IMG/VR virus record: IMGVR_UViG_3300030105_000971
Coordinates: 1 to 22,623 of that record
Reading direction: 5' to 3' (one strand)
Source: a virus
DNA: 22,623 nucleotides
The notes under the pieces: model-generated
Seen by the model: only the letters and a program-made list of their open reading frames with translations
What the model was told of the DNA's origin: nothing
Database searches by the model: none
In this document: piece after piece, positions 923-21,380 of the stretch
Layout: each line of letters opens with the position of its first letter
How positions within the stretch are numbered: position 1 is the first letter of the stretch
Position numbers and translations under genes: made by a program

Positions 923-2737
923 TCAGGAAGCGCCAGCCTCACCAAGTAGACCACGAACGATAACTAGACCGTACATATCCGGGCGGACCATCTTCTTGGC
1001 GTAGCGGGTCATAACACCCTTACGCGGGACGAAGTCTTCCGGTCCAAAGATGGTGGGAGTGGTCTGTAGCGGCACGTAAGGTGCGTAAACATAACCAGAC
1101 TCTAGGAAGCTAGAGCCACGACGACCGATGAGGATCACGTTGCGGAGGAAGTAGGGGTCAACAATGACATCAAACTTCTTGCTTAGTGAACCGGTCTTGA
1201 GTGCGCCGATAGAACCCTTCTCATCATCGTGAGTAACACTTGCGCGGAAGCCAGCGGTAAACTCAAGGATGTTGGCAACTTCGGGTCCGCAGACGACGAA
1301 GTTAGCACCACCACGGAGAGTCTTACGATGGATCTGGGCAGATACGTCGTTCACGGTCTCAACTAGGGTTTCATACCATTCGGAGACAGTGCCGGTGAAA
1401 TCGGGAGCAGCAGAGCTAGCACCGATCTCATTACCATTAGAGTCAACGAAGAGACCCGGAGCGCGTGACCAGTAGCGGGTAGCAGCGGTGGCACCGTTTA
1501 CGAGGTCAGCGAGGATCTCACGGTCAATCTCAAGAGCAATTTGCTCGGAGAGAAGACTGGTAAGCTCAACCTCAGCATCCAAGTTGTGGTATGCGTTGAG
1601 GTCCTGACCTAGCTCGGGGGTCCACTTAGCCTTTAGCTTCTTGGTCTTAGCGGTAACAGCGATAGAATCCACCTTGATGTCAATCTCGGGGATGGAGGCA
1701 TTGCCTTCTAGTGGGAAGAGAGACCCGGCAACAGCACCAGCAGCACCAGAGACGGCATCAATAGTGTCTCTTAGTGGAATCTGAAAAGAGTCCGCCAGCC
1801 AATCACCAGTCGTGGTGGCGTCAGTGGGATCGACGTTTGCACCGGGCGCAACAATAGTAAGACGAATAGCTTTATTGGTAGTTGCAGCTTCGGTGGCAGA
1901 CACTGGGCGACTGAGCCTTCTGATTAGATCAGTGGCAGCAGTGGATAGACCATCGAGGCGGGCTACAGCCTGTGTAAGACCGGTTGCGGTAATTGCAATT
2001 GGTGATAGGTTGTCGAGGTCCAGGGCTCCGAGAGAAGCATCTGTTAGATCTTCTTCTTCAATATCAACAATAATAAGCCCCAAGCTGCTGTCGGTGACAG
2101 CGAGTAGATCGGGATCGAACTCAATGAGCTTCTTGTTAGCAACGCTAACTGAACCGTCGAGCTTAAAAATACCTTTAACAGCAAAGTTAGCGTTGGCGAC
2201 GAGATCAGAGCTACCAGTTGGGGAAGCGTAAGCGTAACCACGGGCAGAAGAGCGAGGACCAGAGAGATCCTGCTTGCTTGAGCCTACGAGATCAACACCG
2301 TCAACGACTTCAGAACCGACCTGATCAGTACCGTAAATTGACTTAGCATCTGCGTTGCCAAAACGGCTTCCGGTGCCAGCAACTCCACCAAGATCACCAG
2401 AGAAGGTGAAGTCGAGGAAGAAGATGAGACCAGAGGGTAGACTCATAGGCTGAACGCTAACGAGGTCGTTGGCGATTAGACCAGCGAAAACGCGGCGAAC
2501 AATGGGGAATGCGACGGCTGCGAAGCCCTCAACGTTTCCACCACCCATGGTGTTACTCTCACGAAGTAGCTCCTTAGCCTGATTCTCAAGTAGACGGGAC
2601 ATAGTGTTCTGCTTGCGCTCGGACTCTAGACCTTCGAGGAGACCTGTTTTCTTCCACTTGGTGAGAAGAGCGTGGGACTCCGCACGCATGTCACGGTTGA
2701 CTACACCCTCGGTGAGTCTTTCTAAAATATTAGACAT
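923..2737 (-). CDS. 23: Major capsid protein, gp23-like precursor
   Basis: This 604-residue protein matches the T4 gp23 plan. Residues 24-60 resemble the gp23 propeptide (LLTKWKK, LLENQAKELL). A likely gp21 cleavage site LRE falls at 58-60, against cleavage after residue 65 in T4. VQPMSLPSG near residue 100 matches the start of the mature HK97-fold core, and the C-terminus from 573 (KGVMTRYAKKMVRPDMYGL) is a gp23 hallmark. It is about 80 residues longer than T4 gp23 (521). The surplus appears to lie in a variable stretch near residues 130-330 rich in Ala, Asp and Thr, possibly an enlarged surface insertion domain. The start has a strong AAGGAGG. It sits 26 bases after the scaffold gene, is presumably cotranscribed with it, and is followed by a terminator. 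The protein would assemble into the prohead shell and mature after proteolysis. Confidence 0.96.
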   Translation of the reverse strand: MSNILERLTEGVVNRDMRAESHALLTKWKKTGLLEGLESERKQNTMSRLLENQAKELLRESNTMGGGNVEGFAAVAFPIVRRVFAGLIANDLVSVQPMSLPSGLIFFLDFTFSGDLGGVAGTGSRFGNADAKSIYGTDQVGSEVVDGVDLVGSSKQDLSGPRSSARGYAYASPTGSSDLVANANFAVKGIFKLDGSVSVANKKLIEFDPDLLAVTDSSLGLIIVDIEEEDLTDASLGALDLDNLSPIAITATGLTQAVARLDGLSTAATDLIRRLSRPVSATEAATTNKAIRLTIVAPGANVDPTDATTTGDWLADSFQIPLRDTIDAVSGAAGAVAGSLFPLEGNASIPEIDIKVDSIAVTAKTKKLKAKWTPELGQDLNAYHNLDAEVELTSLLSEQIALEIDREILADLVNGATAATRYWSRAPGLFVDSNGNEIGASSAAPDFTGTVSEWYETLVETVNDVSAQIHRKTLRGGANFVVCGPEVANILEFTAGFRASVTHDDEKGSIGALKTGSLSKKFDVIVDPYFLRNVILIGRRGSSFLESGYVYAPYVPLQTTPTIFGPEDFVPRKGVMTRYAKKMVRPDMYGLVIVRGLLGEAGAS

Positions 2738-2763: not shown

Positions 2764-3930
2764 TTAATTAATACCTGCTAGTTTACGCATTCTCACATTG
2801 AAGGGATCCACTTGGGGCTCTTCTTTGCGAGATGCACGGATAATTGAGCTTGGACGGTTGATAGCTTCGTTCAGCGATTTTGGACTGATTCTTGGACCAG
2901 CCTGCACTGTACTTTGAAGTGTCTCATGTATTGTCTTTGCTTCCTCAACCGAACCAGCTTTAGAAATCGCTTCGACAATTCTTTGTTTTTGTCGCTCATT
3001 CAAGGAGGTATTCCCAAGCACTCGGTTAGTATAAAGAAGGCGAGCGTTGCTTAGATTTACATCTTGCACGCTCTCCTTCAGAGAGCCAACTACAGACTTG
3101 TAGTTGACCAAAGTTTCTTTTAATTTCTTGTTCTCGAAAACTAGTTCTTCTTGCGCTTGCTTTAGCGCATCTAGTTCATCTTTCATATCGGTGCTGCGGC
3201 GTTTAGCCAACTCAAGCTCCATCTGGTGTTTGGTGTCCTCAGAGGAACGACCAGCCCAACCAGAGAGCGAAGCACCCATATCTACAGTAAGTTTTTCGGC
3301 GATGGCGTCGAGAAGCCCATCAGAAATATCTTCGTAAAGATCATCTTCGTCTGCCTCTTCAAGACCAGCTTTCTCCATAGTGTCAGAGTCCGCCTCTTCT
3401 TCGGCGGCAGGATCCTCGGAGAGCATCTTGGTAACCATTTCTACAATGGCGTCTTCATCGATTTCGATCTCTTCGTCAATATCTTCCTCTACCTCTTCTA
3501 CAACAGATGTGGGCTCCTCATCGTCGATGTCAAGACCACCAGCTTCTTCAAGGGTGTCTTCGCCTTCAACTTCTTCGCGGAGAGACTTAAGAGCTTCTGC
3601 GAGTTCTGCAAAGTCTATAGTAACTTCGGTAAGATCGCCTTCTGCGGTGTCACCGAATTCAGCGACATCTTCAGTAAAGGCGTCAGGGACCCCCTCAGCG
3701 ATCTCGTCAGCATCAACTTCTTCTTGCATTGTGTCTTCGGCTTCAAGAGAAGGCTCATCTGCACCAAGATCACCCATAATATCACCAAGATCATCTTGCT
3801 CCAAAAGGCGCCCAAGTGTTGACTTGACCTCTTCTGAATACTTATCGATGATTGTGGCTTCTGCATTTTTCAATGCAGCCTCTTTTAGTGCCTTGGCATC
3901 CACGATCGCTTGCTCTAATAATGAAGACAT
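2764..3930 (-). CDS. 22: Prohead core scaffolding protein, gp22-like
   Basis: This 388-residue protein has a very acidic Asp/Glu-rich N-terminal half (about 45-210), a coiled-coil-like middle (about 230-297) and a conserved gp22-type C-terminal part at 298-339 (LLYTNRVLGNTSLNERQKQR, then a helix ending KTIHETLQ). It ends RMRKLAGIN, a typical ending for this family in T4-like phages. In T4 gp22 forms the core on which gp23 assembles and is degraded by gp21. Several [L/I]-x-E sites here, including LLE at 4-6, would allow that. It lies directly upstream of the capsid gene, as in T4, but unlike T4 is far from the protease gene. It is longer than T4 gp22 (269), mainly through the acidic region. 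TAGGAG precedes the ATG, and a GACTATTTA motif lies about 32 bases upstream. Confidence 0.92.
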   Translation of the reverse strand: MSSLLEQAIVDAKALKEAALKNAEATIIDKYSEEVKSTLGRLLEQDDLGDIMGDLGADEPSLEAEDTMQEEVDADEIAEGVPDAFTEDVAEFGDTAEGDLTEVTIDFAELAEALKSLREEVEGEDTLEEAGGLDIDDEEPTSVVEEVEEDIDEEIEIDEDAIVEMVTKMLSEDPAAEEEADSDTMEKAGLEEADEDDLYEDISDGLLDAIAEKLTVDMGASLSGWAGRSSEDTKHQMELELAKRRSTDMKDELDALKQAQEELVFENKKLKETLVNYKSVVGSLKESVQDVNLSNARLLYTNRVLGNTSLNERQKQRIVEAISKAGSVEEAKTIHETLQSTVQAGPRISPKSLNEAINRPSSIIRASRKEEPQVDPFNVRMRKLAGIN

Positions 3931-11196: not shown

Positions 11197-11661
11197 CTAT
11201 TTGAGTGCTTGCCAAATCTTACCAGCATTTCCCATGATTGAACTAATATCTACGCCTGCATCGGTAGGGTCATCTCCTAAAACATTTGGCTTGTGTGCGG
11301 TGCCTGGGGTGCCGGACTCTTTTAGAGGCGCTGTGCCTTCAAAAAGATCTACACCATTGTAGGCATCGGCGCCAATGGAATCTAAGAGTTTTTTACGATG
11401 TTCTAGTAGCTTCTGGTTCACCTCTTGGGACTTACGCTTCATTTGCAAGTCTTCATTAAATAGCTTGTCGTTGGGAATGTTAGTTCTTTTTCCCAAACCC
11501 ATGTGGGTGTTTGGTTCTCTTGTCTCGACTATTGGCTGTTTTGTTAAGCCGGCGCTGACTTGAGATACAACCTCTGCAAGAAGCCCCTCTTCTATAAGGA
11601 CTTCTTGGATGCACTCTTTTACGACTGGCTTGATTAGTTTCTTTAGTTGTGCTTTATTCAT
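11197..11661 (-). CDS. Address-bearing putative prohead protein, 154 aa
   Basis: The ATG overlaps the previous stop as ATGA. Residues 1-25 (beginning MNKAQLKKLIKPVVKECIQE) form a strongly amphipathic helix ending LIEEG, which fits an [L/I]-x-E prohead protease site at 22-24. The rest is polar, with a charged helical segment (about 72-92) and a C-terminus ending GNAGKIWQALK. There is no membrane segment. Proteins with the KPVVKECI.EVL.EEG start seem recurrent in marine T4-like phages, but I cannot name a function. I infer an internal head or core protein, from the N-terminus and from its place between the other address-bearing genes and bS21. Confidence 0.75.
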   Translation of the reverse strand: MNKAQLKKLIKPVVKECIQEVLIEEGLLAEVVSQVSAGLTKQPIVETREPNTHMGLGKRTNIPNDKLFNEDLQMKRKSQEVNQKLLEHRKKLLDSIGADAYNGVDLFEGTAPLKESGTPGTAHKPNVLGDDPTDAGVDISSIMGNAGKIWQALK

Positions 11662-12842
11662 TTATCACTCTTTTTTGTAATGTTTTTTAATATATGAAAC
11701 AAAATCTTGTTTTTTTGTCCCTTTTTTGCTTGAGTGGCTGTATAGATCCTGCTAATCGCTTGTTTGACTTTCGCATCTTTTTTATTATAGGCGTCCCGCA
11801 TTTCTTGTTTTCTACTAACAAAATCACCACGGTCAAACATTTTTTCTATCTTGAACGCTTCTTTGATATAATGAGATGGCAAAAATGGGGCAACAAAATC
11901 AACGAATGTTTTTAAGTCATTGTTAAATGTATTTGTACTCTTGTCTTTTTTTCCTCTTTTCGCCTTCCAAGAGTCATAAAGTGTATTGTGGTATTTAACA
12001 CCAAAGTTGCTATTAATTTTATAAACTGGCTCACTCGTTACTTCAGCAGGAGTTTCGTCGGTCTGGGGTGCCTCACTGGGGGATGAAAACAGATCTATAA
12101 ATTTTGTTCGTATCTCCACTCTTTTATCATCTAAACCAAAAGCAGATAATCTTTCTGCAATTTTAGGTAAAAGTTTTTGTAATATAGTATCTTCAGTATT
12201 TGGAAGTTCATCAAATATTTTTATCCAAGCTTCTCTATTTTCTGGGTTTCCATATTTACTACCAGAAAGTTGGTTATAAATATTAGAAAACTCTTGTTTT
12301 GTATTTGATGATAAAAGTTTGTCGATTAAGGCGTTTCTTGCTTCTTCTGTAAGCGGGGCACCTGACTCAGCATCAAAATTAGCTTCAGGTGCTGCTTGAG
12401 GTTCTTTATTAGGCGCCTCATCAGGAGCGGCTGGTGATGCGGCAGCAGGCTTTTCAAACTTAACTGTATTCGCCCGTCCCCAGTAGTTTAAAGCCTTGAC
12501 TACTGCTTTTTGTTTTTGCTGGTCTAATCCAAGTTTAGCAATACCTTGAAGAATCTCTCTTGTAGTTTCTGATGAAAACACTCTATCTTGTTCTGATTTT
12601 GAGCCTTGAAGGGTTACAGCCTCTAACATAATGTCTTCATCACTGGCTGCGTTAGCAACCAAATTTACGATTGCTATTTTTTGTTCTGGAGTTAATGCTC
12701 CAGCTAATTTATTGAGAATGTTGATTAAAGAGTCTTTATTATCTTTTGAGTTTAAACCAAAAATAGTTTGTCCCTCTTCGTGGAGGAACTTACGCCAACT
12801 CTCTGTTAGGAGTTTGTCTTTCTCAAAGCTACTCCAAGTCAT
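11658..12842 (-). CDS. Address-bearing putative internal head protein, 394 aa
   Basis: The start overlaps the protease gene by 14 bases, with GAGG nine bases upstream. Residues 11-23 (LLTESWRKFLHEE) resemble a T4 capsid-targeting sequence, with a likely cleavage site LHE at 20-22. Three parts follow: a helical region (35-125), an Ala/Pro-rich linker (131-155), another helical region (165-250), a second Ser/Pro/Glu linker (252-271), and a basic C-terminal domain (280-394) with many Lys and a KKGQKNK segment. The linkers and basic end would suit a packaged, DNA-associated protein or a core protein. No enzyme motif is visible. Because it sits next to the protease, a gp67/gp68-type core role is a reasonable alternative. 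Confidence 0.75.
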   Translation of the reverse strand: MTWSSFEKDKLLTESWRKFLHEEGQTIFGLNSKDNKDSLINILNKLAGALTPEQKIAIVNLVANAASDEDIMLEAVTLQGSKSEQDRVFSSETTREILQGIAKLGLDQQKQKAVVKALNYWGRANTVKFEKPAAASPAAPDEAPNKEPQAAPEANFDAESGAPLTEEARNALIDKLLSSNTKQEFSNIYNQLSGSKYGNPENREAWIKIFDELPNTEDTILQKLLPKIAERLSAFGLDDKRVEIRTKFIDLFSSPSEAPQTDETPAEVTSEPVYKINSNFGVKYHNTLYDSWKAKRGKKDKSTNTFNNDLKTFVDFVAPFLPSHYIKEAFKIEKMFDRGDFVSRKQEMRDAYNKKDAKVKQAISRIYTATQAKKGQKNKILFHILKNITKKSDK

Positions 12843-13434
12843 CTTTCAAGACCTCGTTTAACAACCTGTTGATGCGGTCTGCTTTTGTAAACACTCTGTT
12901 GTTGAACTCTTTTGCCTCTCTCATCATAAAAGCGTTTGGTGTGGAGGGCTCGGACACAAAGTCAAAGCAGATAAGTTGGAAGTCTTCTTGGACTACGACC
13001 TTACCTGCGCCTTCTGATACTGATCCCATACCGCGAGAAGAGATGCCAAGTTTTACGCCATCTTCTACAAGAGCACGCAGGGTCTTGCCGGCGTCTGTAT
13101 TGAGTACCTTTACTTTGCCCATAACTGCTTTGTCTTCCATCCAAATAGATGTGACCATATGAGAAGCATTCTTTAGGTTAATGACTGAATCATCGGGGTG
13201 ATCAAGTTCGCCAAGTGCTCTGTTTTCTTTTACAAGCTTCTTATAGTTCTCGACCTCTCGCACCAAAACCTTGTGAGGGTAGACGCGACCATTACCGTTT
13301 TGGACATCTGCTTCTTGTAACTTACCGGAAAGCACCATCCCGCCGTTGGCGACGAAGCGCTTTTCATCTTCAGTGAGCAGATCTTGGCATACGCCGCCTT
13401 CGCATAGTTCGTAGTATTCTCGTAGTAGTTTCAT
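12829..13434 (-). CDS. 21: Prohead core protease, gp21-like serine protease
   Basis: This 201-residue protein matches T4 gp21 (212 aa). NGNGRVYP at 46-53 corresponds to the NRNKRLYP strand, GELDHP at 75-80 carries the catalytic His (H79, T4 H85), and GISSRGMGS at 130-138 carries the nucleophile (S132, T4 S140). It belongs to the herpes-protease-like prohead protease fold. In T4 the enzyme, inside the prohead, cuts scaffold, capsid protein and internal proteins after [L/I]-x-E and then destroys itself. Its own N-terminus MKLLREYYELCEGG offers such sites (LRE, LCE). One base separates it from the stop of the preceding gene, and it overlaps the following gene. It is flanked on both sides by genes with address-like N-termini, presumably its substrates. 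Confidence 0.95.
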   Translation of the reverse strand: MKLLREYYELCEGGVCQDLLTEDEKRFVANGGMVLSGKLQEADVQNGNGRVYPHKVLVREVENYKKLVKENRALGELDHPDDSVINLKNASHMVTSIWMEDKAVMGKVKVLNTDAGKTLRALVEDGVKLGISSRGMGSVSEGAGKVVVQEDFQLICFDFVSEPSTPNAFMMREAKEFNNRVFTKADRINRLLNEVLKDDLE

Positions 13435-13435
13435 C

Positions 13436-13924
13436 CTATATAACCTTGCTCAATAGTGCTTGGGCGCTTAGTAATCTTTCTGCCAAGCCCCAACGCATAC
13501 CTTTGTTGGCATTAGAGAGTCTGTGCATAGAGCCACCTCGTTGATCATCTTTAGTATCAAAAATGTCCAAGAGTGTTTCTCTATCAGGTATAGTGGCTAA
13601 CGCTGTGCTTATTTGTTCTGGGGACACACCAACAATCTGCATCTCCTCTTCATTCATAGAAGCATCGTCGTAGGCAAGACGGCTTTTATCCGTCTGAGTT
13701 GCGCTCCACAAATCATGGTTTGCTCTAGCTATCATAGTGTCTTTTGAGTTTCCGCCGGTCTGTGTTTCAACAAAGCGCAAATACTCTTGAGGATCATAGG
13801 GGATACCAAGAGCTTCTTTCGCATTTGTGGCAGCAGCAAATAGCTCGTCAAATACCTCTTCAGTCTCGGGGTGGTATTCGCCCTCGTTTATAAACTTTTT
13901 CCAATTTTCGATTAATAGTTTCAT
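13436..13924 (-). CDS. Address-bearing putative internal head protein, 162 aa
   Basis: The ATG at 13924 is chosen over one seven codons earlier because AAGGAA lies five bases upstream of it, and because it gives MKLLIENWKKFINEGE. This is very close in plan to the T4 internal protein address MKTYQEFIAE followed by Ala, with cleavage expected after INE (12-14). The remaining 148 residues are acidic and helical, without membrane segments or a known motif, and include a QTGGNSKDTMIARANHDLW stretch. A small GC-rich hairpin (13938-13952, GCGGG/CCCGC) lies just upstream of the ribosome binding site. The gene directly precedes the protease. Packaged cargo or core protein is the inferred role. Confidence 0.75.
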   Translation of the reverse strand: MKLLIENWKKFINEGEYHPETEEVFDELFAAATNAKEALGIPYDPQEYLRFVETQTGGNSKDTMIARANHDLWSATQTDKSRLAYDDASMNEEEMQIVGVSPEQISTALATIPDRETLLDIFDTKDDQRGGSMHRLSNANKGMRWGLAERLLSAQALLSKVI

Positions 13925-13957
13925 TTGTTTTCCTTGTGCGGGCATTACCCGCGCGAG

Positions 13958-14023
13958 CTAAGAGCCTTTACAGCAACGACGAACGGGCTGTAAGCCCCAC
14001 TTTCCGATTAGATAGTTGTTCAT
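13958..14023 (-). CDS. Possible micro-protein, 21 aa
   Basis: The ATG at 14023 overlaps the stop of the membrane protein gene as TGATG and has an AGGAG eight bases upstream, a better site than many long genes here. The peptide begins MNNYLIGKWGLQPVRRCC and contains two adjacent Cys. It fills most of the 98-base gap. It could be a real micro-protein, a leader peptide that couples translation, or chance. Nothing identifies a function. Confidence 0.35.
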   Translation of the reverse strand: MNNYLIGKWGLQPVRRCCKGS

Positions 14024-14364
14024 CACTCTTCTCCTAAGAAGTTATCGTATTTATAATTATGCTTTACTTGAATTCCTTCATCCGAAAACACCATATTAAA
14101 AACATAGGATGTTGCGGAAGATAGGCAGCCAAGTAAAAGAGCATTCACGATCGTTACATCAAACATAAATAGTTCAGTCCAAGGAGAAAGCAGGAGCAAA
14201 AACCAGCCGACGTGGAAACCCATACACATAGGGCAGTGGAAAACCTTGCCGTAACCCTTGTAGGATTCCTTGTGAGGTCTTAGTTTTTTTATTACGGGCA
14301 TATCGCTATAGACTAAAATTTGTGTTAGTCCGTAGGCTATGAGGACGAATAGTATTAGTTCCAT
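14023..14364 (-). CDS. Small membrane protein with CPMC motif, 113 aa
   Basis: The ATG directly follows the stop of the 152-aa gene. A membrane segment at about 2-18 begins the protein, a basic loop follows, then CPMCMGFHVGW at 44-54, and two further hydrophobic stretches (about 53-68 and 71-92). A short hydrophilic tail ends it. The CPxC-x-G-[FH]-W-like motif beside a membrane helix is shared by small integral membrane proteins of unknown function such as those of the DUF1360 type, an assignment I cannot verify here. The Cys pair could bind metal or be redox-active. It is odd to find a membrane protein inside the head operon, and it may act on the host envelope late in infection. Confidence 0.75.
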   Translation of the reverse strand: MELILFVLIAYGLTQILVYSDMPVIKKLRPHKESYKGYGKVFHCPMCMGFHVGWFLLLLSPWTELFMFDVTIVNALLLGCLSSATSYVFNMVFSDEGIQVKHNYKYDNFLGEE

Positions 14365-14823
14365 TTATTTCTTTACCTGATTGTTGTTGAATTTATTAGA
14401 TAAGTATTTTTGAAGCTCATCATTGACATCTGGAATAGGGGCTAGATCGTCCATGCTTTCCATTGCCTTCAACAGATCATTAATAAATGCCACCTCAATT
14501 GGATCATCTACAATTTTAGATACATCATCATCGACGTTTAGCCTGTCTAAGCCAGTCGCTGATTTAAAAGAATCTTCCGCACCATATAACTTGCCTACAA
14601 TTTCTTTGGCGTCTTGAACACCCTTCCAAAGCGAAAAGATGTTGCTAATAACCGGGATTTGTTCTATTGCTGCTTCAGCAGCTTTCTTACCTAATTCCTT
14701 GCCAGCCTCTTTAGCTCTATGAGTTTTAATAAGCTTTCTTAAATCTCCGACTGTTTCAAGAGGTGCCTCTTGCAAAACAAACTTGTCCCAACTTTCCATT
14801 ATGACTTTCATTTCGCTTGACAT
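14365..14823 (-). CDS. Address-bearing putative internal head protein, 152 aa
   Basis: AGGAG before the ATG at 14823 supports this start. The N-terminus MSSEMKVIMESWDKFVLQEA resembles the T4 internal protein address, with a predicted cut after LQE (17-19). Residues 48-69 form a long Ala-rich then hydrophobic stretch (AIEQIPVISNIFSLWKGV) that could be an amphipathic or membrane-active helix. The C-terminal part is acidic. It lies three genes upstream of the protease, in the same class as its WxKF neighbours. A packaged protein able to interact with membranes after DNA entry is one speculative reading. A core protein is the conservative one. Confidence 0.75.
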   Translation of the reverse strand: MSSEMKVIMESWDKFVLQEAPLETVGDLRKLIKTHRAKEAGKELGKKAAEAAIEQIPVISNIFSLWKGVQDAKEIVGKLYGAEDSFKSATGLDRLNVDDDVSKIVDDPIEVAFINDLLKAMESMDDLAPIPDVNDELQKYLSNKFNNNQVKK

Positions 14824-14832
14824 AGCGGGCTC

Positions 14833-15405
14833 CTATATTGTATACATGTAGGACATGGTGTAGGGATCTCGCATATAGCCCTTGCGGATAGAGCCTTGAT
14901 CTGCACGCTGAGGCACCTCGCCAAGTTCTGTTGACTGCTCTTTGTCTGGCTCTGTGTTTTCTTGCTCAAAGCCTGCGACTGCGGCTTCTACCGCCTCAAA
15001 GTATGGACGCTCTTCTGTGATGAACTTCTCAATGCTTACAAGCGCAAACTTGGCGGCGTTTAACTTGTCATCTGCTACTTCTTGTAGCTTAGCTTCCATT
15101 GCACCATAAAATGAGCCGCCCTGTATGGACTCAATAGTGACGATACCTTTACGAGCAAGATGGTTAAACAATCGGTTTTGGGCACCGTAAGTAAAATCGG
15201 TCATCATTTGCTTTGGAAAAGCGGTGATCTTTTTGTCTTTTCCAGAAAGAACAATATCTATGTCGCCGTGGTCAAAGATCATCAAGTCTCCATTAAGGGA
15301 CTTACGAATATCTAGTTCCAGGGTTACTGTAGGAGGAGGAGTTTTAGGTTTAATCGTAATCTTGATTGGTTCTGGAATCGGAACAATCCTAACTGTTACT
15401 GCCAT
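14833..15405 (-). CDS. Unknown virion-cluster protein, 190 aa
   Basis: AAGGAG lies seven bases before the ATG. The protein begins with a Pro/Ile/Lys-rich beta-like segment (MAVTVRIVPIPEPIKITIKP), then a beta-rich region that includes ELDIRKSLNGDLMIFDHGDIDIV, a helical middle and a Gln/Glu-rich stretch. It ends with RKGYMRDPYTMSYMYTI, an aromatic tail that could dock on a partner. There is no signal peptide or membrane segment, and no address-like N-terminus. Its start overlaps the 275-aa gene by 17 bases. I do not recognise it. Conservation between portal and protease would point to head assembly or a neck component. Confidence 0.7.
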   Translation of the reverse strand: MAVTVRIVPIPEPIKITIKPKTPPPTVTLELDIRKSLNGDLMIFDHGDIDIVLSGKDKKITAFPKQMMTDFTYGAQNRLFNHLARKGIVTIESIQGGSFYGAMEAKLQEVADDKLNAAKFALVSIEKFITEERPYFEAVEAAVAGFEQENTEPDKEQSTELGEVPQRADQGSIRKGYMRDPYTMSYMYTI

Positions 15406-16216
15406 TATAGATCTCCTTTACTAATTCTTGTGTCTTCAAGATGGTTAATAGGGTTGCCTCGTTAAGAGTTGTTTCGTTTGATAGTTTTTGCAAACGCTCT
15501 TTAACTAACTGGGTTTTATTGATCATCTCTGGATCGGCGGCGACCTCTTCCACTTTTGTTGCATTCTCTATTGATTCTTTCAATCTACCGAGTTCGCGAT
15601 TGAGGTAAATCTTCATCTCCAAGTCCTCATTTGAAAAAGAAGAGATGTATCTGTTTAATAGTTCTTTCTGTTCAGATAGAAGCGTACTATCATATTGCTC
15701 ATTAAACTTCTTAACAAAAGTAGAATAGGTCAATTCATCGATAGGCTTCATATGTGTCTCTTTTACTATACTGCACATTTCACGAATAACCTTTTGCTCA
15801 AGAATAACTGACTCTTTCGGAGAATCTGTGTTAAACATCTTTGCGATTGTTGCCAAAGACTTGTAGTTTGGAACAAAGTTATTAAACGTTGATGGCGAGA
15901 GATCTTTATTGATGTCATTTATGATCTCTGTTTGTTGTTTGAACAATCCAGTTGGATCGATGAGGTGCTTAGCAACCTTCACAGCCTCTATGATCTTCTG
16001 GCTTGTCTTTTCATTAAGGTTTTGGTTTTCATAAAGGGAACGATAGCATTCAAGATCTTTACGAAGAAGAGAGTCCCCTGCAAAATGTTTACGGACAATT
16101 GAAACAACCTTATCTTTTCTTTCTTTGTCGCCTTTGATTATAGCAACGGTTGCCTCGCGAGAAAGAGCCTCAAAAACAAATGCGGTATTTCTCTTTTTAT
16201 TGTGTTTATTCTTCAT
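15389..16216 (-). CDS. Unknown helical protein downstream of the portal gene, 275 aa
   Basis: The start overlaps the portal gene by 11 bases and has AAGGAG upstream. The protein is basic at its N-terminus (MKNKHNKKRNTAFVFEALSR), almost entirely helical, and rich in Lys and Glu, with likely coiled coil in the C-terminal half (about 190-270). There is no membrane segment or enzyme motif. In T4 the small core proteins gp67 and gp68 lie between the portal and protease genes. This gene has that position but is larger, and no sequence match can be claimed. Core or portal-assembly partner is the inferred role. Confidence 0.7.
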   Translation of the reverse strand: MKNKHNKKRNTAFVFEALSREATVAIIKGDKERKDKVVSIVRKHFAGDSLLRKDLECYRSLYENQNLNEKTSQKIIEAVKVAKHLIDPTGLFKQQTEIINDINKDLSPSTFNNFVPNYKSLATIAKMFNTDSPKESVILEQKVIREMCSIVKETHMKPIDELTYSTFVKKFNEQYDSTLLSEQKELLNRYISSFSNEDLEMKIYLNRELGRLKESIENATKVEEVAADPEMINKTQLVKERLQKLSNETTLNEATLLTILKTQELVKEIYNGSNS

Positions 16217-18197
16217 TGCTGTTCTCCTTCTCCTTTACTTCCAGACTTTCTATAAGCATCTTTACAGAACTATTAACCGCGAGCAAAGCCCTTTCAGCTT
16301 CTTTATCTCTCAAGTAAGTAGGCTCTTGCTCTTCATAAATACCCCTTGACAAAGATCTTAGCTCAGAGGCACCGAGGTTATTAGTTCTGTAAGTGTTCAT
16401 CTCTGGTGTAGGGATACTCGTATAGTTTCTAGTTCTTGCGCCCTGGGGTCTCTTGTCTACGGCAACCTTTCGATAGGTCTTGCCCTTTGAGCCCTTGGTT
16501 AAATATTTTTTACCTGTTCTCGCACGCTTACCAAGAGATGGTGTTAGACGCGGTGAATCGCGAGAGCCCGGTGGTGCTGCGAGAAGTGGGCTGTCGTCTT
16601 CGCCTCCACCTTCATCGCCGCCCGTGTCGTCGCCAAGATCGAGGTCGCCACCCTCGTCTCCACCAAGATCAAGATCGCCTCCTTCCTCTCCACCGAGATC
16701 AAGACCGCCACCTTCGCCACCAGCGCCCGCAGCGGCTGCTTCGGCAACAGCCTCAAGTGCAGCGTCGTGTTTACGATCGTAATACATCTCGCGCTGGTTG
16801 CGTAAGAACTCTTCGTGAGACATTGCGAAGATGTTGTCGGCAACCCAACGGCGAGAGAAGAAGCCTTCTGTCGCTGACGCTGCGATGTCAAACTTGGTCT
16901 TCCAGTGCTCAAGCTCTTGTAGTTCGGCAATCTTGCTTGGGTTGTTTAGAGAGAGTTTAAAGTTTATAAGATCGTCTCCACGATATCCAAGAGTATAAAG
17001 GTGGATAATACCAATCTTCTCTAGTTCGTGAATGACTGTGCGCTGTAGGCGTTGGATAGTTCTTGCGAAACGAATATCCTTGGTAGCCAGTGTTGTTTTA
17101 TCTTCTGCCGCGCCTTCGCCCATAGTAAGGTAAGACTGCGGAACTTTTAATGCGGAGAATAGTTTGTCGCGAAGATACTTGACATCATCAATCGCTGTAG
17201 TGTTTGTCCCACCGGCAAGGTTCTGAATATCTGTAACAGAACCAGCACGGACGGGAATATAGTAGTCCTCTTCAATAGACATAGGATTGTAGCGAAGATC
17301 AACCCTGCCTGTGTCCTTGTCAACGATTGTGTGGCGCTTTAGCTGCGTTACAATCTTTTGCATATACTGTTCAACTTCCTGTGGCGGGATTGCACCAACA
17401 TCAATTTTGAAGACCTTTCGCTCTGAGGAGCGAACAATGCGGTAAGCCATCATTGCGTCTTCCATTAGCGTAAGCTGGCGCCAGATGCGGCGGGCGGGCT
17501 CTAGAACTGATGTTCCGTAGGGAGCATATTTATCGTTACCAAGAATGCGGAAGTGCGCAATCTGCCAGTTTTCGAAAGTCATACCAGCAGTGTTCCACTG
17601 GTATTGGACATAGTTTGGATTTGTAGCATCCATACCCTCAAGACGCTCAACTTCTTGGAGCGGGATAGCGATGGTGGACTTGACCCCAACTTCATCATCG
17701 AGATCTAAATAAAGAACAAAGTCACCATACTTGCACATTGTCCGACACCAACCAAAAAGATTGTATTCTATGTTCATTACGTTTTTGTAAAGAATCTTTA
17801 AGACTGCTTTGATTTCATCATTGGCACAACGAATGTTTAGCATTGGAGACAAGTCAGAAAATGTCGTCATCTCATCTGCATAGATGTCTAGCGAAGAGGC
17901 AATCTCGGGTGTATACTCCATTTGATCGAAATCAATATAGCGTTCGGAGCGGCGCTGATTTGCAATAGCGTTGGCTGCGATGGTGTCTAGCGGATTATAA
18001 GATTGCTTCTTAAATTGTTGACCAGAGGCAGAACGGAAACGAGAGGAGAATTTGTCTAAATGCTGCTTGCGTATCTTGCGTCCAGACTCGGAACGATAAT
18101 TAATGATCGGTCCAGAGAACAAACGTGTGAGAGCCTTAAATAATTGAGACTCTCTGTTTGCTGGGTTGTTACCTTGTTTCGGATTACTGGGTGCCAT
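16206..18197 (-). CDS. 20: Portal vertex protein, gp20-like
   Basis: This 663-residue protein follows the T4 gp20 plan: a basic N-terminus, the DFDQMEYTPEIASSLDIYADE helix (88-110), the central KYGDFVLYLDLDDEVG strands (156-171), YAPYGTSVLEPARRIWRQL (224-242), a loop-helix with VPQSYLTMGEG (352-362) and FFSRRWVADNIFAMSHEE (446-463). It forms the dodecameric ring at one vertex through which DNA passes, and it nucleates prohead assembly. It is about 140 residues longer than T4 gp20 (524) because of a C-terminal extension: acidic Gly/Leu/Asp repeats at 496-535, then a Lys/Arg-rich stretch at 556-590 and a helical end. It follows the terminase by 11 bases. Sheath and tube genes that separate these two in T4 are missing here. 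Confidence 0.95.
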   Translation of the reverse strand: MAPSNPKQGNNPANRESQLFKALTRLFSGPIINYRSESGRKIRKQHLDKFSSRFRSASGQQFKKQSYNPLDTIAANAIANQRRSERYIDFDQMEYTPEIASSLDIYADEMTTFSDLSPMLNIRCANDEIKAVLKILYKNVMNIEYNLFGWCRTMCKYGDFVLYLDLDDEVGVKSTIAIPLQEVERLEGMDATNPNYVQYQWNTAGMTFENWQIAHFRILGNDKYAPYGTSVLEPARRIWRQLTLMEDAMMAYRIVRSSERKVFKIDVGAIPPQEVEQYMQKIVTQLKRHTIVDKDTGRVDLRYNPMSIEEDYYIPVRAGSVTDIQNLAGGTNTTAIDDVKYLRDKLFSALKVPQSYLTMGEGAAEDKTTLATKDIRFARTIQRLQRTVIHELEKIGIIHLYTLGYRGDDLINFKLSLNNPSKIAELQELEHWKTKFDIAASATEGFFSRRWVADNIFAMSHEEFLRNQREMYYDRKHDAALEAVAEAAAAGAGGEGGGLDLGGEEGGDLDLGGDEGGDLDLGDDTGGDEGGGEDDSPLLAAPPGSRDSPRLTPSLGKRARTGKKYLTKGSKGKTYRKVAVDKRPQGARTRNYTSIPTPEMNTYRTNNLGASELRSLSRGIYEEQEPTYLRDKEAERALLAVNSSVKMLIESLEVKEKENSNEE
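16593..16712 (-). repeat. 30-bp coding repeats in the portal C-terminal extension
   Basis: Three 10-residue units (GGGLDLGGEE, GGDLDLGGDE, GGDLDLGDDT) and a looser fourth encode a glycine-rich acidic linker at residues 496-535. The DNA units are clearly related, so the segment probably grew by slippage or recombination. Confidence 0.85.
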
Positions 18198-18208
18198 TGT
18201 TCATTTAC

Positions 18209-19789
18209 TCACTTTATTATCCACATGTATTGGGAATATGTATTTTTTGCTTCGTTCATTTTACTAGTTTGGTCCTCTCCTGTGTAGCCTATTTGTCCCT
18301 TAATTTGAGTATTTAAAACCGTCCTTGAGGTTATGATGGCATCTACAAAAGCTTTCTGATAGTTTAGGTCACGAGCGTTTGATTGTAGTGCTGTGTCTTT
18401 AACCCAGCAGCAAATCGCAAGAGCCATCACTAAATCGTCGTTATATCCTCGCATCGATTGTGGCTTGCCGTTATACCAAATGAATGTTCTAAATTCATTT
18501 GCCAAACGAGAAGAATACGTTTTAATTAGTTTGTTTCTTATAAACTCTTCTAGTTTGGCTACAATCAGTGGTCTGGTCTTTGAGGTGGTCGAAAAACCAG
18601 CGATAGCGCCAGGATTATATTCTCCGAGATGTTGGTCAATATATTCGTGTGTAGACTTGACGGAATAGTAAAGGTTTGGATAATTGTATTCTACAAGCTT
18701 ATCAATGACTGTGTATCCAATAGAATTGTTCTCTACCACCATCATCGCATTTCCAAACTCTCGACCCACTTGGTTTAGCATATTAGCATAAAGGTCGGGT
18801 GTTGGCTTGCCTTGATACTCTCCAATGATCTCCATTGTCTCAATCTTGAGAATATGGAATGTGGAGCTATCGGCGCCGTCGCCCCTTGCTACGTCAGCAG
18901 CCATAACATAGCTACAAGTTGGATCGTATTCTTCCCAAATCCAAAAGTTTCTATCAAAGCCGGTTTTGTGCTTTGGTTCCTTTACATTCGCCAAGATCCA
19001 TTCTAGATTATCTGGATCGATGACGGTCTCGCCAGATGTGTTGAAGTTACATTGTAACTCCTGGGCAATCTGGCGGCGGTTCATGTTTCTGGTTTCTTTC
19101 TTGAACCATTGTTCGTCGCGCTCGGGATGGACATCCCACATAAGAGTTGTTAGATTAAAATTATTTTCATTGTTCTCGGCACCAACGCAAGTTTTGTGGA
19201 ACCAGTTACCAACGCCGTTGGGGGTTGAGATGGCAATACAGCGACCACCCGTGGATAGCGTTGGATACAGACCAGTCCAGAGACCCTCTAGTCCTTCAAT
19301 GTGTGCTGCCTCATCAAGAACTAGAAGTGATAGTGCCTCTGAGCGACCAGCATCGCCTGAAGTAGAAGCAGCTTTGATTGAAGAACCATTAGACAACTCA
19401 AAAGACGTGCGGTTGTCTGTCGTGATACTTGCTATCCTGATCCAGTCAGGAAGGTTCTTCATTATGTTTTTGACTTTGCGAACCAAGTTACCTGCTGTTT
19501 CAAACTTGGTAGCCATAACAAGGATAGCCTTGTCGCGATGAAACAGCATCATCCAAACAATGTAGCCAGCAGTAATCGTTGAGATTCCTAGCTGGCGACC
19601 CTTGTTAATAACATTGAAGCGATAATCGTTGAAGTCATTTAGTAACTGATCTTGATAATCATAAGTCTTAAACAACATAAGCCCGTGCATCGGGTGAGAG
19701 ATGCGGGCATAGTTTTTAAGAAAGTAAGAGGGATCTTTACCGCACTTAATAACTTCTTTGAGTATTTGCTTTTTCGTTAGTTTGGACAT
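18209..19789 (-). CDS. 17: Terminase large subunit, gp17-like
   Basis: This 526-residue protein packages DNA into the prohead. The ATPase domain has a Walker A-type GRQLGIST at 64-71, Walker B LLVLDEAA at 155-162, with E160 as catalytic carboxylate, and the coupling motif STPNG at 188-192. The nuclease domain has D299 in AADVARGDGADSS, E353 in VVENNSIG and D451/D452 in GYNDDLVMALAI, the expected acidic triad. T4 gp17 is 610 residues. The Walker A lysine of T4 (SRQLGKTT) is Ile here, while a Lys lies just before the motif (K63). It is preceded by two address-bearing genes and followed directly by the portal gene. No small subunit (gp16) is recognisable next to it. Confidence 0.96.
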   Translation of the reverse strand: MSKLTKKQILKEVIKCGKDPSYFLKNYARISHPMHGLMLFKTYDYQDQLLNDFNDYRFNVINKGRQLGISTITAGYIVWMMLFHRDKAILVMATKFETAGNLVRKVKNIMKNLPDWIRIASITTDNRTSFELSNGSSIKAASTSGDAGRSEALSLLVLDEAAHIEGLEGLWTGLYPTLSTGGRCIAISTPNGVGNWFHKTCVGAENNENNFNLTTLMWDVHPERDEQWFKKETRNMNRRQIAQELQCNFNTSGETVIDPDNLEWILANVKEPKHKTGFDRNFWIWEEYDPTCSYVMAADVARGDGADSSTFHILKIETMEIIGEYQGKPTPDLYANMLNQVGREFGNAMMVVENNSIGYTVIDKLVEYNYPNLYYSVKSTHEYIDQHLGEYNPGAIAGFSTTSKTRPLIVAKLEEFIRNKLIKTYSSRLANEFRTFIWYNGKPQSMRGYNDDLVMALAICCWVKDTALQSNARDLNYQKAFVDAIITSRTVLNTQIKGQIGYTGEDQTSKMNEAKNTYSQYMWIIK

Positions 19790-19799
19790 TCATCTTGCT

Positions 19800-20057
19800 T
19801 TACATTCTTGGATTATCAGGCATAGCATCGGACTCCGCTTCGGGTCCCATAGCATCAACGATTGTTAGCGCCGCATTCTCAATCACTCTCAACACAGATT
19901 GGGGAATTCCTCCCATGGGGAATCCTTCCTCAGATTCCAAAAAGCCAATAAACCCATCACGAATCCTGGCAGCTTGTGCCTTTCGTTCATTAAAATCAGT
20001 AGCTTCACCCATCTCTTCTTTGATAATCTGCTTTAGTCTTGCTTTTGTTAGTTTCAC
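19800..20057 (-). CDS. Address-bearing small protein, copy 2, 85 aa
   Basis: The start is GTG at 20057, overlapping the stop of an 18-codon chimeric frame as GTGA. Residues 1-16 (MKLTKARLKQIIKEEM) match the preceding paralogue except at one position and end in an IKE site (12-14) suited to prohead protease. The rest is unrelated to that paralogue: an acidic helical region with GFIGFLESEEGFPMGGIP and a Met/Asp/Pro-rich end. There is no membrane segment. It ends 10 bases before terminase. Packaged protein or small core protein is inferred. A terminase small subunit role is conceivable from position, but no DNA-binding motif is visible. Confidence 0.75.
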   Translation of the reverse strand: MKLTKARLKQIIKEEMGEATDFNERKAQAARIRDGFIGFLESEEGFPMGGIPQSVLRVIENAALTIVDAMGPEAESDAMPDNPRM

Positions 20058-20097
20058 TTTTTGTCTCCTTTAACAATAGGTCTCTTATCGTTTTTCG
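20011..20097 (-). repeat. Direct repeat copy B (87 bp, partner at 20411-20497)
   Basis: The 87 bases match 20411-20497 at 83 positions, with an exact offset of 400. The copy covers the address codons of the 85-aa gene, its ribosome binding site, and a fragment of the 3' end of the 182-aa gene that is out of place here. Confidence 0.95.
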
Positions 20098-20110
20098 TTA
20101 GTCTCAGCAT
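20054..20110 (-). pseudogene. Chimeric micro-frame at a tandem-duplication junction
   Basis: The frame ATG 20110 to TGA 20054 encodes MLRLTKNDKRPIVKGDKK. Its last 13 residues repeat the C-terminus of the 182-aa protein, and its start (context AAGATGAATG, then ACTAACGAAAAA) matches the beginning of the terminase gene (MSKLTK). It is best read as the scar of a tandem duplication that joined the terminase 5' end to the 182-aa gene 3' end. It may still be translated, since its stop overlaps the GTG start of the 85-aa gene. Confidence 0.7.
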
Positions 20111-20115
20111 TCATC

Positions 20116-20457
20116 TTAATCTATTTTAAGACCGCGAAGCTTAACGCCCCCTGGAGGTAGGCGCCGACCTCTCATAGAGATTGAAGCGGACCTCTCTGGA
20201 TCGTCATACATCTGATTGTCCTGAATAGAACGAATAAGTCCCATAACCTCTTCATCGCCGCCAGCCAAGGCTTCTAGCTCTTCTGGGGACATTTGGTCTA
20301 TGTGAGCGCGAGCAGCAAGAGCGTCAATCAATTTCTGCTCTGGGCTGCGCATTCCAGTGTCAAAGCGCGGCTCTGTTCCGCCCAGTTCATCACCAGAAGA
20401 GAAAGAATCCATTTCTTCTTTGATAATCTGCTTTAGTCTTGCTTTTGTGATTTTCAC
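20116..20457 (-). CDS. Address-bearing small protein, copy 1, 113 aa
   Basis: The GTG start at 20457 overlaps the stop of the 182-aa gene as GTGA, with AAAGGAG upstream. The N-terminus MKITKARLKQIIKEEM carries a predicted prohead protease site (IKE, 12-14). The cargo part is acidic and Gly/Ser-rich at first, then helical (SPEQKLIDALAARAHIDQMS; SPEELEALAGG), and ends in a basic RRLPPGGVKLRGLKID. It shares only the address with copy 2. A short internal head protein is the inferred role. Confidence 0.75.
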   Translation of the reverse strand: MKITKARLKQIIKEEMDSFSSGDELGGTEPRFDTGMRSPEQKLIDALAARAHIDQMSPEELEALAGGDEEVMGLIRSIQDNQMYDDPERSASISMRGRRLPPGGVKLRGLKID

Positions 20458-20497
20458 TTTTTGTCTCCTTTGACAATAGGTCTCTTATCGTTTTTCG
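20411..20497 (-). repeat. Direct repeat copy A (87 bp, partner at 20011-20097)
   Basis: This copy spans the last codons of the 182-aa gene, its overlap with the 113-aa gene and the address codons of that gene. It is probably the original arrangement, because here the upstream sequence belongs to an intact gene. Confidence 0.95.
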
Positions 20498-21002
20498 GAC
20501 GAGTGCCGAGACCACCTTGATCTAGGAACTTCTTCCAATCGGCGGCAAGACGATCTTCTGTTGCCACGCCAACAACTGCAACTTCTTCCATTCCGCCGAC
20601 TTTATAGTGCATCTTGGCTGTGACCCAAGAGCGAACTCTGGAAGAGTTTTCTACGCGAATGTCGATCTCGCCTTCCGGCTTGAGAGAGATAGTGCCCCCA
20701 CCAAGCTTGCGAGCCTCTTTCTTCAAGAACTTTACGATGTCTGCCATCTGCTGTTCTACATCTGCCTCAAAGCCATTAGCATATACTTCCTGTAAACGAA
20801 CTTCGGACATGTAAGACAGACACATCATAGGTCCATAAAACTTCACGTTAAAGCCGTCCATGACGCGCTTATCTATAAGGGGGTTCCCCTCCTCTCTCTT
20901 TAGACCTGCCTTGAGGGCTTCGCCGTCTTCGGTTAGAGCGCCGTCGTATGCGTTTGCGGAAGCTTGTGATAGAGCTTGTATAATTTCATAAACTGTAGCC
21001 AT
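20454..21002 (-). CDS. Protein of unknown function upstream of the terminase block, 182 aa
   Basis: AAGGA lies nine bases before the ATG, and two GACTATTTA-like motifs stand upstream, so this gene probably opens a long transcript that runs through terminase and portal. The protein has a helical N-terminus (MATVYEIIQALSQASANAYD) and a mixed alpha/beta middle with DGFNVKFYGPMMCLSYMSEV. A likely beta sheet follows (GGGTISLKPEGEIDIRVENS) and then a WVTAKMHYKVGG strand, and it ends RPIVKGDKK. No catalytic motif, membrane segment or address is evident. It may be a virion-assembly protein. I do not recognise the family. Confidence 0.75.
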   Translation of the reverse strand: MATVYEIIQALSQASANAYDGALTEDGEALKAGLKREEGNPLIDKRVMDGFNVKFYGPMMCLSYMSEVRLQEVYANGFEADVEQQMADIVKFLKKEARKLGGGTISLKPEGEIDIRVENSSRVRSWVTAKMHYKVGGMEEVAVVGVATEDRLAADWKKFLDQGGLGTRPKNDKRPIVKGDKK

Positions 21003-21029
21003 TTATAGTGTTCCTTTATATGCTTGCCT

Positions 21030-21039
21030 GTAAATAGTA
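21030..21039 (-). promoter_or_regulatory. Variant of the putative late promoter motif (TACTATTTAC)
   Basis: The minus strand reads TACTATTTAC 27 bases before the ATG of the 182-aa gene, the same spacing as for the exact motifs. Only the first base of the GACTATTTAC decamer differs. Confidence 0.45.
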
Positions 21040-21050
21040 GCGAACTTTCT

Positions 21051-21060
21051 CTAAATAGTC
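21051..21060 (-). promoter_or_regulatory. GACTATTTAG putative late promoter
   Basis: The minus strand reads GACTATTTAG, 21 bases upstream of a second related motif and about 48 bases before the ATG of the 182-aa gene. The tandem arrangement may raise initiation for the long terminase-portal-protease transcript. Confidence 0.5.
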
Positions 21061-21071
21061 TACAACAAGAC

Positions 21072-21380
21072 TTATTTTTGCGTAGGGTCTTCCCCAGCCG
21101 GTGCGACTTGTTTCTTGAGCATATTAAAAATTCTTTCCAGAGTGGCGCGCTTCGTCTGAAGTTCTACGCCGGGCATCTCTGCAAGATCTAGAAGAAACTG
21201 ATCTATCTGCTGAATAATGCCTCTCTCCATGTTTGAAAGTTCTGGATTTGCCTCCAGTCTGTCTTCTTTGCCAGACTTGCCGAAAGCGGAGCCGCCCATG
21301 GATTTGGTCTTAAATTTTACTTTTTCTTCTTGTTCTCTCAAGACTTCTCTGATTAATTCTCTTAAATCTTCAGTTTTCAT
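21072..21380 (-). CDS. Address-bearing small protein, 102 aa
   Basis: The start overlaps the preceding gene by 11 bases, with GGAG six bases upstream. Residues 1-17 (MKTEDLRELIREVLREQ) form an amphipathic helix with a predicted protease site LRE at 14-16. A basic, Gly/Ser-rich part (about 20-36) and a helical C-terminus follow (ERGIIQQIDQFLLDLAEMPG, then LERIFNMLKKQ). There is no membrane segment. It resembles in plan the two small proteins upstream of terminase, and is probably another internal head or core protein. It is the last gene before the putative promoter pair. Confidence 0.7.
   Translation of the reverse strand: MKTEDLRELIREVLREQEEKVKFKTKSMGGSAFGKSGKEDRLEANPELSNMERGIIQQIDQFLLDLAEMPGVELQTKRATLERIFNMLKKQVAPAGEDPTQK

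Follow-up and report, generated by a model that had tools for sequence, protein, structure and literature searches.

The window analysed here is the whole 22,623-nucleotide stretch (positions 1 to 22,623) of IMG/VR virus record IMGVR_UViG_3300030105_000971, and the relevant genes of this 22.6-kb record all lie on the minus strand and constitute a T4-like head gene cluster. Seven of the encoded proteins begin with a short N-terminal segment ending in [L/I]-x-E, here called the label. We consider it highly probable that the labels are capsid targeting propeptides and that the variable proteins behind them, the cargos, are packaged, trimmed by the prohead protease gp21 (peptidase S77) and probably injected into the host. 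This reading is supported by the modularity of the labels, their swapping between cargos, their match to the T4 capsid targeting sequence (CTS), their co-occurrence with the S77 protease and the avoidance of its cleavage motif. Judged from these comparisons, packaging of the labelled proteins in the head is very likely, and it may be inferred that the labels bind the core and are cleaved by gp21 and that the cargos enter the host as effectors. The carriers are a large group of uncultured, mostly marine T4 relatives, and their system is very likely an enlarged, modular form of the T4 internal-protein system.

The labelled genes and their N-terminal modules

Two N-terminal modules were recognised in sequence logos (a slash marks the predicted cut): type A, MKITKxQLKQIIKEEL, also written MKITKxxLKQIIKE/E, and type B, MKLLxENWRKFLxE/. 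The initial annotation had named seven genes with [L/I]-x-E-ending N-termini, and all were found at the claimed lengths in amino acids (aa) and at the claimed coordinates with plausible starts; the 162-aa gene starts at 13924, an alternative 169-aa start being less likely. Positions in nucleotides (nt), labels and N-termini with predicted cuts are as follows.

11197..11661, minus strand: 154-aa labelled protein, probable scaffold-core component; label residues 1-24, nt 11590-11661; MNKAQLKKLIKPVVKECIQEVLIE/E
11658..12842, minus strand: 394-aa type-B labelled protein, either core or cargo; label residues 1-22, nt 12777-12842; MTWSSFEKDKLLTESWRKFLHE/E
13436..13924, minus strand: 162-aa type-B labelled protein, predicted variable cargo; label residues 1-14, nt 13883-13924; MKLLIENWKKFINE/G
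14365..14823, minus strand: 152-aa type-B labelled protein; label residues 1-19, nt 14767-14823; MSSEMKVIMESWDKFVLQE/A
19800..20057, minus strand: 85-aa type-A labelled protein, predicted variable cargo; label residues 1-14, nt 20016-20057; MKLTKARLKQIIKE/E
20116..20457, minus strand: 113-aa type-A labelled protein, predicted variable cargo; label residues 1-14, nt 20416-20457; MKITKARLKQIIKE/E
21072..21380, minus strand: 102-aa type-A-like labelled protein, present in 15/80 loci; label residues 1-16, nt 21333-21380; MKTEDLRELIREVLRE/Q

The protease and the capsid protein carry such sites as well, as had been noted before. The capsid site, KELLRE/S after residue 60, is conserved in the propeptide alignment (lineage form LL[RK]E/), and gp21 has LRE, LCE and LTE near its N-terminus.

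A plain [LI]xE within the first 30 residues was rejected as evidence, as 14 of the 27 window genes have one and about 8 are estimated by composition. The full module is a different matter. A gene caller was run on 80 loci around gp21 relatives and on four contigs of 127-194 kb, and labels were found on 151 unique proteins, which without the label form 81 unrelated clusters; a wider set, collected in part with a DNA pattern of the label, comprises 707 unique labelled proteins in 371 BLAST clusters. In the four long contigs 42/941 genes match a module N-terminally, when about 0.2 would be expected from shuffled N-termini and internal methionines give 5/3,016; each of these contigs, which may be incomplete, has approximately 10-16 labelled genes. 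Protease-anchored loci contain 131 labelled genes among 1,444, random viral contigs 2 among 1,855. Unlike the plain motif, the full module at N-termini is thus far beyond chance. A search of 257 Gb of genomes from bacteria and archaea gave no match to the B pattern and one to the A pattern; this one lies on a contig with genes resembling these phages and with B labels too. Labels of both types are also present on genes of PBSV01000031.1; this contig is assigned to an Opitutia metagenome-assembled genome but appears to be phage DNA placed in the wrong bin.

Four loci (L346:9060-9725, L102:16350-16649, L154 and L175) have what may be an additional label type, M...K..(D)PRYF[LM].E, which likewise ends in F-[LM]-x-E, and one type-A protein (L068:4972-5514) has a second KIKKSQLKRIVKEELKRFL segment C-terminally, as if labelled at both ends.

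The labels resemble the CTS of the T4 internal proteins IPI-IPIII (and Alt), which is likewise a short MK-starting propeptide with an aromatic-x-x-F-[IL]-x-E arrangement and an S77 cut after E. In T4 too, the mature parts are unrelated and the genes lie partly outside the head cluster. In amber-suppressor analysis of IPIII, targeting depended mainly on residues 4 and 7 and processing on residues 8 and 10, and gp21 cleaves after L/I-x-E (PMC9026906). The T4 label MKTYQEFIAE thus reads Y4-x-x-F7-I8-x-E10, and the type B logo, W8-x-x-F/Y11-L/I/V12-x-E14, has the same spacing; type A reads L8-x-x-I11-I12-x-E14, with hydrophobic, not aromatic, residues at the targeting positions. Among B-core proteins of loci that had not been selected by motif, [LIV]xE follows within 6 residues in 58/63, as against 3.9% of control windows, and E stands at the site in 81/86 A-core proteins of unselected loci. 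B variants with extra residues after WxxF still have [LI]xE, and this retention despite shifted spacing indicates that address and cut site are maintained separately.

The head regions of Cyanophage S-WAM2, Caulobacter phage Cr30 and marine virus AG-345-P14 contained no A or B cargos; the sole label-like feature there is the gp22 N-terminus FEEFVTE in two of the three. Cyanophage scaffolds of the Kyanoviridae (gp22; L496, L498) start with MSDMLNEKFEEFVTE, so that here it is the scaffold that carries the F-x-x-F-[VL]-x-E pattern. A tblastn comparison of the labels with named phages was uninformative, the peptide queries being too short.

The two modules are exchangeable. A cargo may have an A label in one phage while its orthologue in another has a B label, as in L021:7870 and L008:9774, in L231:2789 or L172:5359 and L161:2581, and in L194:11271 or L133:3034 and L041:926, and DnaJ domains occur behind A and B labels alike; the largest cluster that mixes A and B (97 members) results from chaining in BLAST and was left uncounted as a swap. 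In SAM (S-adenosylmethionine)-lyase orthologues the labels differ and homology begins at the cut (MKKVITEWKEFLTE/SSISR versus MNKNKRTKDPRYFLNE/SSLSR). Homologues of two cargos occur without a label in other phages. A nucleotidyltransferase-like protein reads MKLLMENWYRFLAE/GGNVF in one phage; its unlabelled orthologue in Flavobacterium phage vB_FspM_immuto (NC_055915) reads MGGNVF, is preceded by in-frame stops and begins exactly at the predicted cut. Two other apparently label-free homologues (L313:631, L324:3835) were start mis-calls and were dropped.

In the window itself, the ribosome-binding site (RBS) and label of two neighbouring genes form a duplicated cassette:

20009..20097, minus strand: RBS and label cassette, copy 1 (85-aa gene); 89-nt direct repeat, 96% identity
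20409..20497, minus strand: RBS and label cassette, copy 2 (113-aa gene); 89-nt direct repeat, 96% identity

Similarity of the copies ends after codon 16, just past the predicted cut, before two different cargos, and the duplication looks like an existing label being put on a new cargo. The initial annotation had held that the labelled genes share little else, which does not apply to this pair.

Inserts are found at some junctions of the head cluster and not at others. The slot between a conserved membrane-like 113-aa gene and gp21, occupied by the 162-aa gene in the window, is empty in 21/40 loci and holds one or two genes in 19, and 29/29 of the inserted genes carry A or B; the 162-aa protein itself has orthologues in just 2/80 loci. 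In the slot between gp21 and the 154-aa gene, the position of the 394-aa gene, the WSSF...WRKFLxE N-terminus is constant and the body ranges from approximately 200 to 900 aa. Other slots are similar but less pure, and the gp17-gp20 and gp20-275 aa junctions never hold inserts (99 and 102 loci). A second cluster of several consecutive type-B genes is found approximately 80-90 kb from the head genes.

Cargo, core and other readings of the labels

A protein that resides in a prohead together with an [L/I]-x-E protease should avoid the motif unless it is meant for destruction. Motif frequencies were compared with shuffled expectation after removal of the label and 15 further residues, using one sequence per cargo cluster (365) and 669 unlabelled proteins from the same phages as controls. 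The observed/expected (O/E) value of [LI]xE was 0.88 in cargo bodies and 1.15 in controls (ratio 0.76, 95% confidence interval 0.69-0.83). The corresponding ratios for [LI]xD, [LI]xQ, [LI]xS and E-x-[LI] were 1.17, 1.21, 1.17 and 1.11, and [LI]xK was likewise not avoided by cargo bodies. As a class, therefore, the cargos have few further sites. In T4, mature IPI, IPII and IPIII contain no [LI]xE and gp67, gp68 and gp22 contain 3-16.

By the same measure the labelled proteins of the window differ from one another. The bodies of the 162-, 152-, 113- and 85-aa proteins have one [LI]xE in 396 residues versus 4.8 expected (none in the last three) and in this respect behave like mature virion cargo; they lack the wealth of sites that marks a core protein. 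The 154-aa protein has 4 internal sites versus 1.1 expected (O/E 3.5), like T4 gp22, gp67 and gp68, and its orthologues adjoin gp21 in 61/80 relatives; the gp22-like protein has 19 versus 8.9. Being both conserved and rich in [LI]xE, the 154-aa protein is most likely a scaffold-core component and not delivered cargo. The 162-, 113- and 85-aa proteins are the predicted variable cargo of the window, and the positionally conserved 394-, 152- (22/80 loci) and 102-aa families may belong to the core or be constitutive internal proteins. The earlier proposal that about seven proteins are packed in the head is thereby supported at sequence level with regard to packaging but probably has to yield the 154-aa protein to the core, an alternative it had itself allowed for some of the seven.

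Could most labelled proteins be scaffold or core, the label docking them to the core, where they would shape the prohead and be destroyed by the protease with no delivery at all? The conservation of several window families beside gp21, reminiscent of T4 gp67 and gp68, and the site-rich 154-aa protein fit such a role, yet the cut motif is depleted in cargo bodies taken together, the opposite of T4 gp22, gp67 and gp68, and hundreds of unrelated cargos would make little sense as disposable scaffold. We regard this explanation as unlikely. The cargos concerned include labelled relatives with matches above the Pfam cut-off to SAM lyase, zeta toxin/AAA_33 and DnaJ, and others at E <= 0.001 to protein kinase (just under the cut-off), GNAT, HD, nucleotidyltransferase, 5'-nucleotidase, ParB-like, transglutaminase-like, pentapeptide repeat and YkuD domains, each matching protein having one domain. 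Searches of the window's labelled proteins against Pfam and PHROGs gave no significant family, and the statement that the cargo parts have no recognisable domains consequently stands for the window but not for its relatives, many of which have enzymatic domains. These domains fit host takeover or anti-defence. SAM lyase of the T3 type has a known anti-restriction activity. Packaged proteins with takeover and anti-restriction roles are already known from T4, namely Alt and IPI (PMC9026906, PMC3012670). A search of the PDB with the sequences of the SAM-lyase and kinase-like cargos gave no match. The AlphaFold2 model of the 162-aa cargo was too poor (predicted local distance difference test score, pLDDT, 54), as was that of an ADP-ribosyltransferase (ART)-looking cargo (pLDDT 37), for which an ART identity is not claimed.

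Labels alone do not reveal their partner, and the second type-B cluster lies far from the head genes, so that the N-terminal helices could also be thought of as docking tags for a non-head structure or process such as a polymerase of host or phage, a chaperone or a compartment. We find this quite improbable in view of the spacing, which is exactly that of the CTS mapped by genetics in T4, the maintenance of [LI]xE independently of spacing, the cargo-specific avoidance of the head protease motif and the position of the slots beside gp20 and gp21; moreover, T4 internal-protein genes are likewise distant from the head genes. Least credible of all is the view that the shared N-terminus acts at the level of nucleic acid, as a translation enhancer, promoter or recombination site, and is coding by chance, since, although RBS and label were duplicated jointly at the DNA level in the window, third codon positions of labels vary across cargos while the amino acids stay fixed, which points to selection on the peptide itself, and the peptide core is unchanged where extra N-terminal residues (MSSEMK..., MTWSSFEKDK...) offset it.

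Several points nevertheless weigh against packaging by means of the labels. The S77 protease was found in 18/40 contigs above 60 kb chosen by label alone, in 8/8 of those above 140 kb, and in 2/23 random contigs; dependence on gp21 would fit these counts, but common ancestry explains them equally well, and many label-bearing contigs of 60-125 kb, which are probably fragments, have no S77. Type A mostly has E directly after the cut (P1') and aliphatic residues at the aromatic positions of T4, and its cut position is uncertain, either after E14 or at a second site near residues 18-22. The window's own cargos offer neither a recognisable domain nor a confident fold, and the wider set was in part collected by the label itself.

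If the labels are capsid targeting propeptides, each would be a short amphipathic helix that binds the prohead scaffold core, so that any protein bearing it becomes trapped within the forming head and is then freed by gp21 cutting after [L/I]-x-E. Variable cargos would remain in the head with the DNA and probably be injected as early takeover or counter-defence factors, and labelled proteins that are conserved and rich in sites, such as the 154-aa protein and possibly others, would be shredded as core components. New cargos would be gained by copying the RBS and label cassette before another gene, in dedicated slots beside the head genes and in the second, distant cluster.

Comparison with known delivery systems

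T4 internal proteins have been described as diverse defence proteins of which only the CTS is conserved (PMC3012670, PMC9026906). T4 has three internal proteins and Alt with one CTS type; the phages described here differ in the larger number of labelled genes (approximately 10-16 per long contig), in having two to four label families that are exchanged among cargos, and in their dedicated slots and enzymatic cargos. Giant phages come close in another respect. Head proteins of phiKZ and SPN3US are reported to have propeptides that are cut after Glu by an S77-like protease, and to be ejected into the host (PMC5694885, PMC10052503, PMC9026906). Many propeptide-bearing head proteins are a feature common to those phages and, by prediction, to the ones studied here. 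We know of no short, shared and interchangeable label on small unrelated cargos among the giant-phage propeptides. Polyvalent proteins of phages and plasmids bring injected effector domains, e.g., ART, GNAT and nucleases (PMC5512222, PMC7824862), but fuse many disparate domains in one giant polypeptide, whereas the effectors considered here would be separate labelled gene products, none with several such domains.

It is reasonably probable, though less so than packaging as such, that a large aquatic T4-like lineage has a plug-in form of virion secretion, in which a few generic, exchangeable labels load an open-ended and rapidly changing library of single-domain effectors, made up of hundreds of families with many enzymes among them (e.g., SAM lyase, zeta-toxin-type ATPases, kinase-like and acetyltransferase proteins), for injection before gene expression. 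The injected arsenal would then far exceed the few internal proteins of T4, and the label would be a sequence-readable index of takeover and anti-defence proteins, comparable to the secretion signals of bacterial effectors. With no fold in common, injected phage proteins are difficult to recognise; should the labels prove to be capsid addresses, virion-delivered proteins could be listed from sequence by searching for a short motif, and the labels would be natural interchangeable packaging tags comparable with the T4 CTS. The 371 BLAST clusters, obtained from a small sample and mostly of unknown function, are candidates for countering host defences, and the duplicated cassette may be a molecular trace of gaining new injected proteins.

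A cultured relative in which the idea could be tested is the Flavobacterium phage immuto (host Flavobacterium sp. LMO8), the nearest named phage by terminase (45% identity), followed by Microcystis phage Mel-JY01 (42%); both have the head gene order of the window, in immuto including S77. Immuto also resembles the window phage in that two N-termini, MENFDLKKFLVENKLT and MKKSQLRQIIKEAL, recur among several proteins encoded next to the terminase, with predicted cuts in MENFDLKKFLVE/N... and MKKSQLRQIIKE/A..., but its label families differ in sequence, and labels are not described in its record. At 102-119 kb of immuto (L499-L502) four otherwise different proteins start MENFDLKKFLVENKLT-like, and a label pattern defined post hoc occurs in 7/30 genes of the cargo/head region versus 1/184 elsewhere.

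The surrounding head gene cluster

In transcription order the window contains the genes for the 102-aa, 182-aa, labelled 113-aa and 85-aa proteins, gp17, gp20, the 275-, 190- and 152-aa proteins, the membrane-like 113-aa protein, the 162-aa protein, gp21, the 394- and 154-aa proteins, ribosomal protein S21, tail-fibre-like proteins, the gp22-like scaffold and gp23. The head genes other than the labelled ones are:

18209..19789, minus strand: gp17-like terminase large subunit (PHROG terminase, 6.9e-54)
16206..18197, minus strand: gp20-like portal protein (PHROG portal, 1.5e-68)
14023..14364, minus strand: unlabelled membrane-like 113-aa protein bordering the cargo slot, conserved in 78/80 loci
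12829..13434, minus strand: gp21 prohead protease, peptidase S77 (PF03420, E=1.8e-31; PHROG head maturation protease, 1e-54)
2764..3930, minus strand: gp22-like scaffold protein, assigned by its position directly before gp23 in transcription order and its richness in [LI]xE
923..2737, minus strand: gp23-like major capsid protein with propeptide (PF07068, E=1.4e-71; propeptide alignment)

A Pfam search gave no match for the gp22-like protein, and Rfam and tRNA scans of the window likewise gave no match. The membrane-like 113-aa protein, located between portal and protease, contains HCPMCMGFHVGW and matches no Pfam family. The capsid protein is 604 aa long (T4 gp23, 521 aa) and has, beyond a conserved VQPMSLPSGLIFFLDF segment, a variable stretch unaligned by gp23 profiles. 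A gene for ribosomal protein S21 (PF01165; 10940-11188, minus strand) follows right after the 154-aa gene in the head cluster; it is present in 51/80 relatives, and rpsU is at the same place in Mel-JY01. A large tail-fibre-like protein (6253-8706) contains many near-identical repeats (VDSDQYVDGSIDLIHMS..., TATAAELNYLDNDDLTAADLTKLA).

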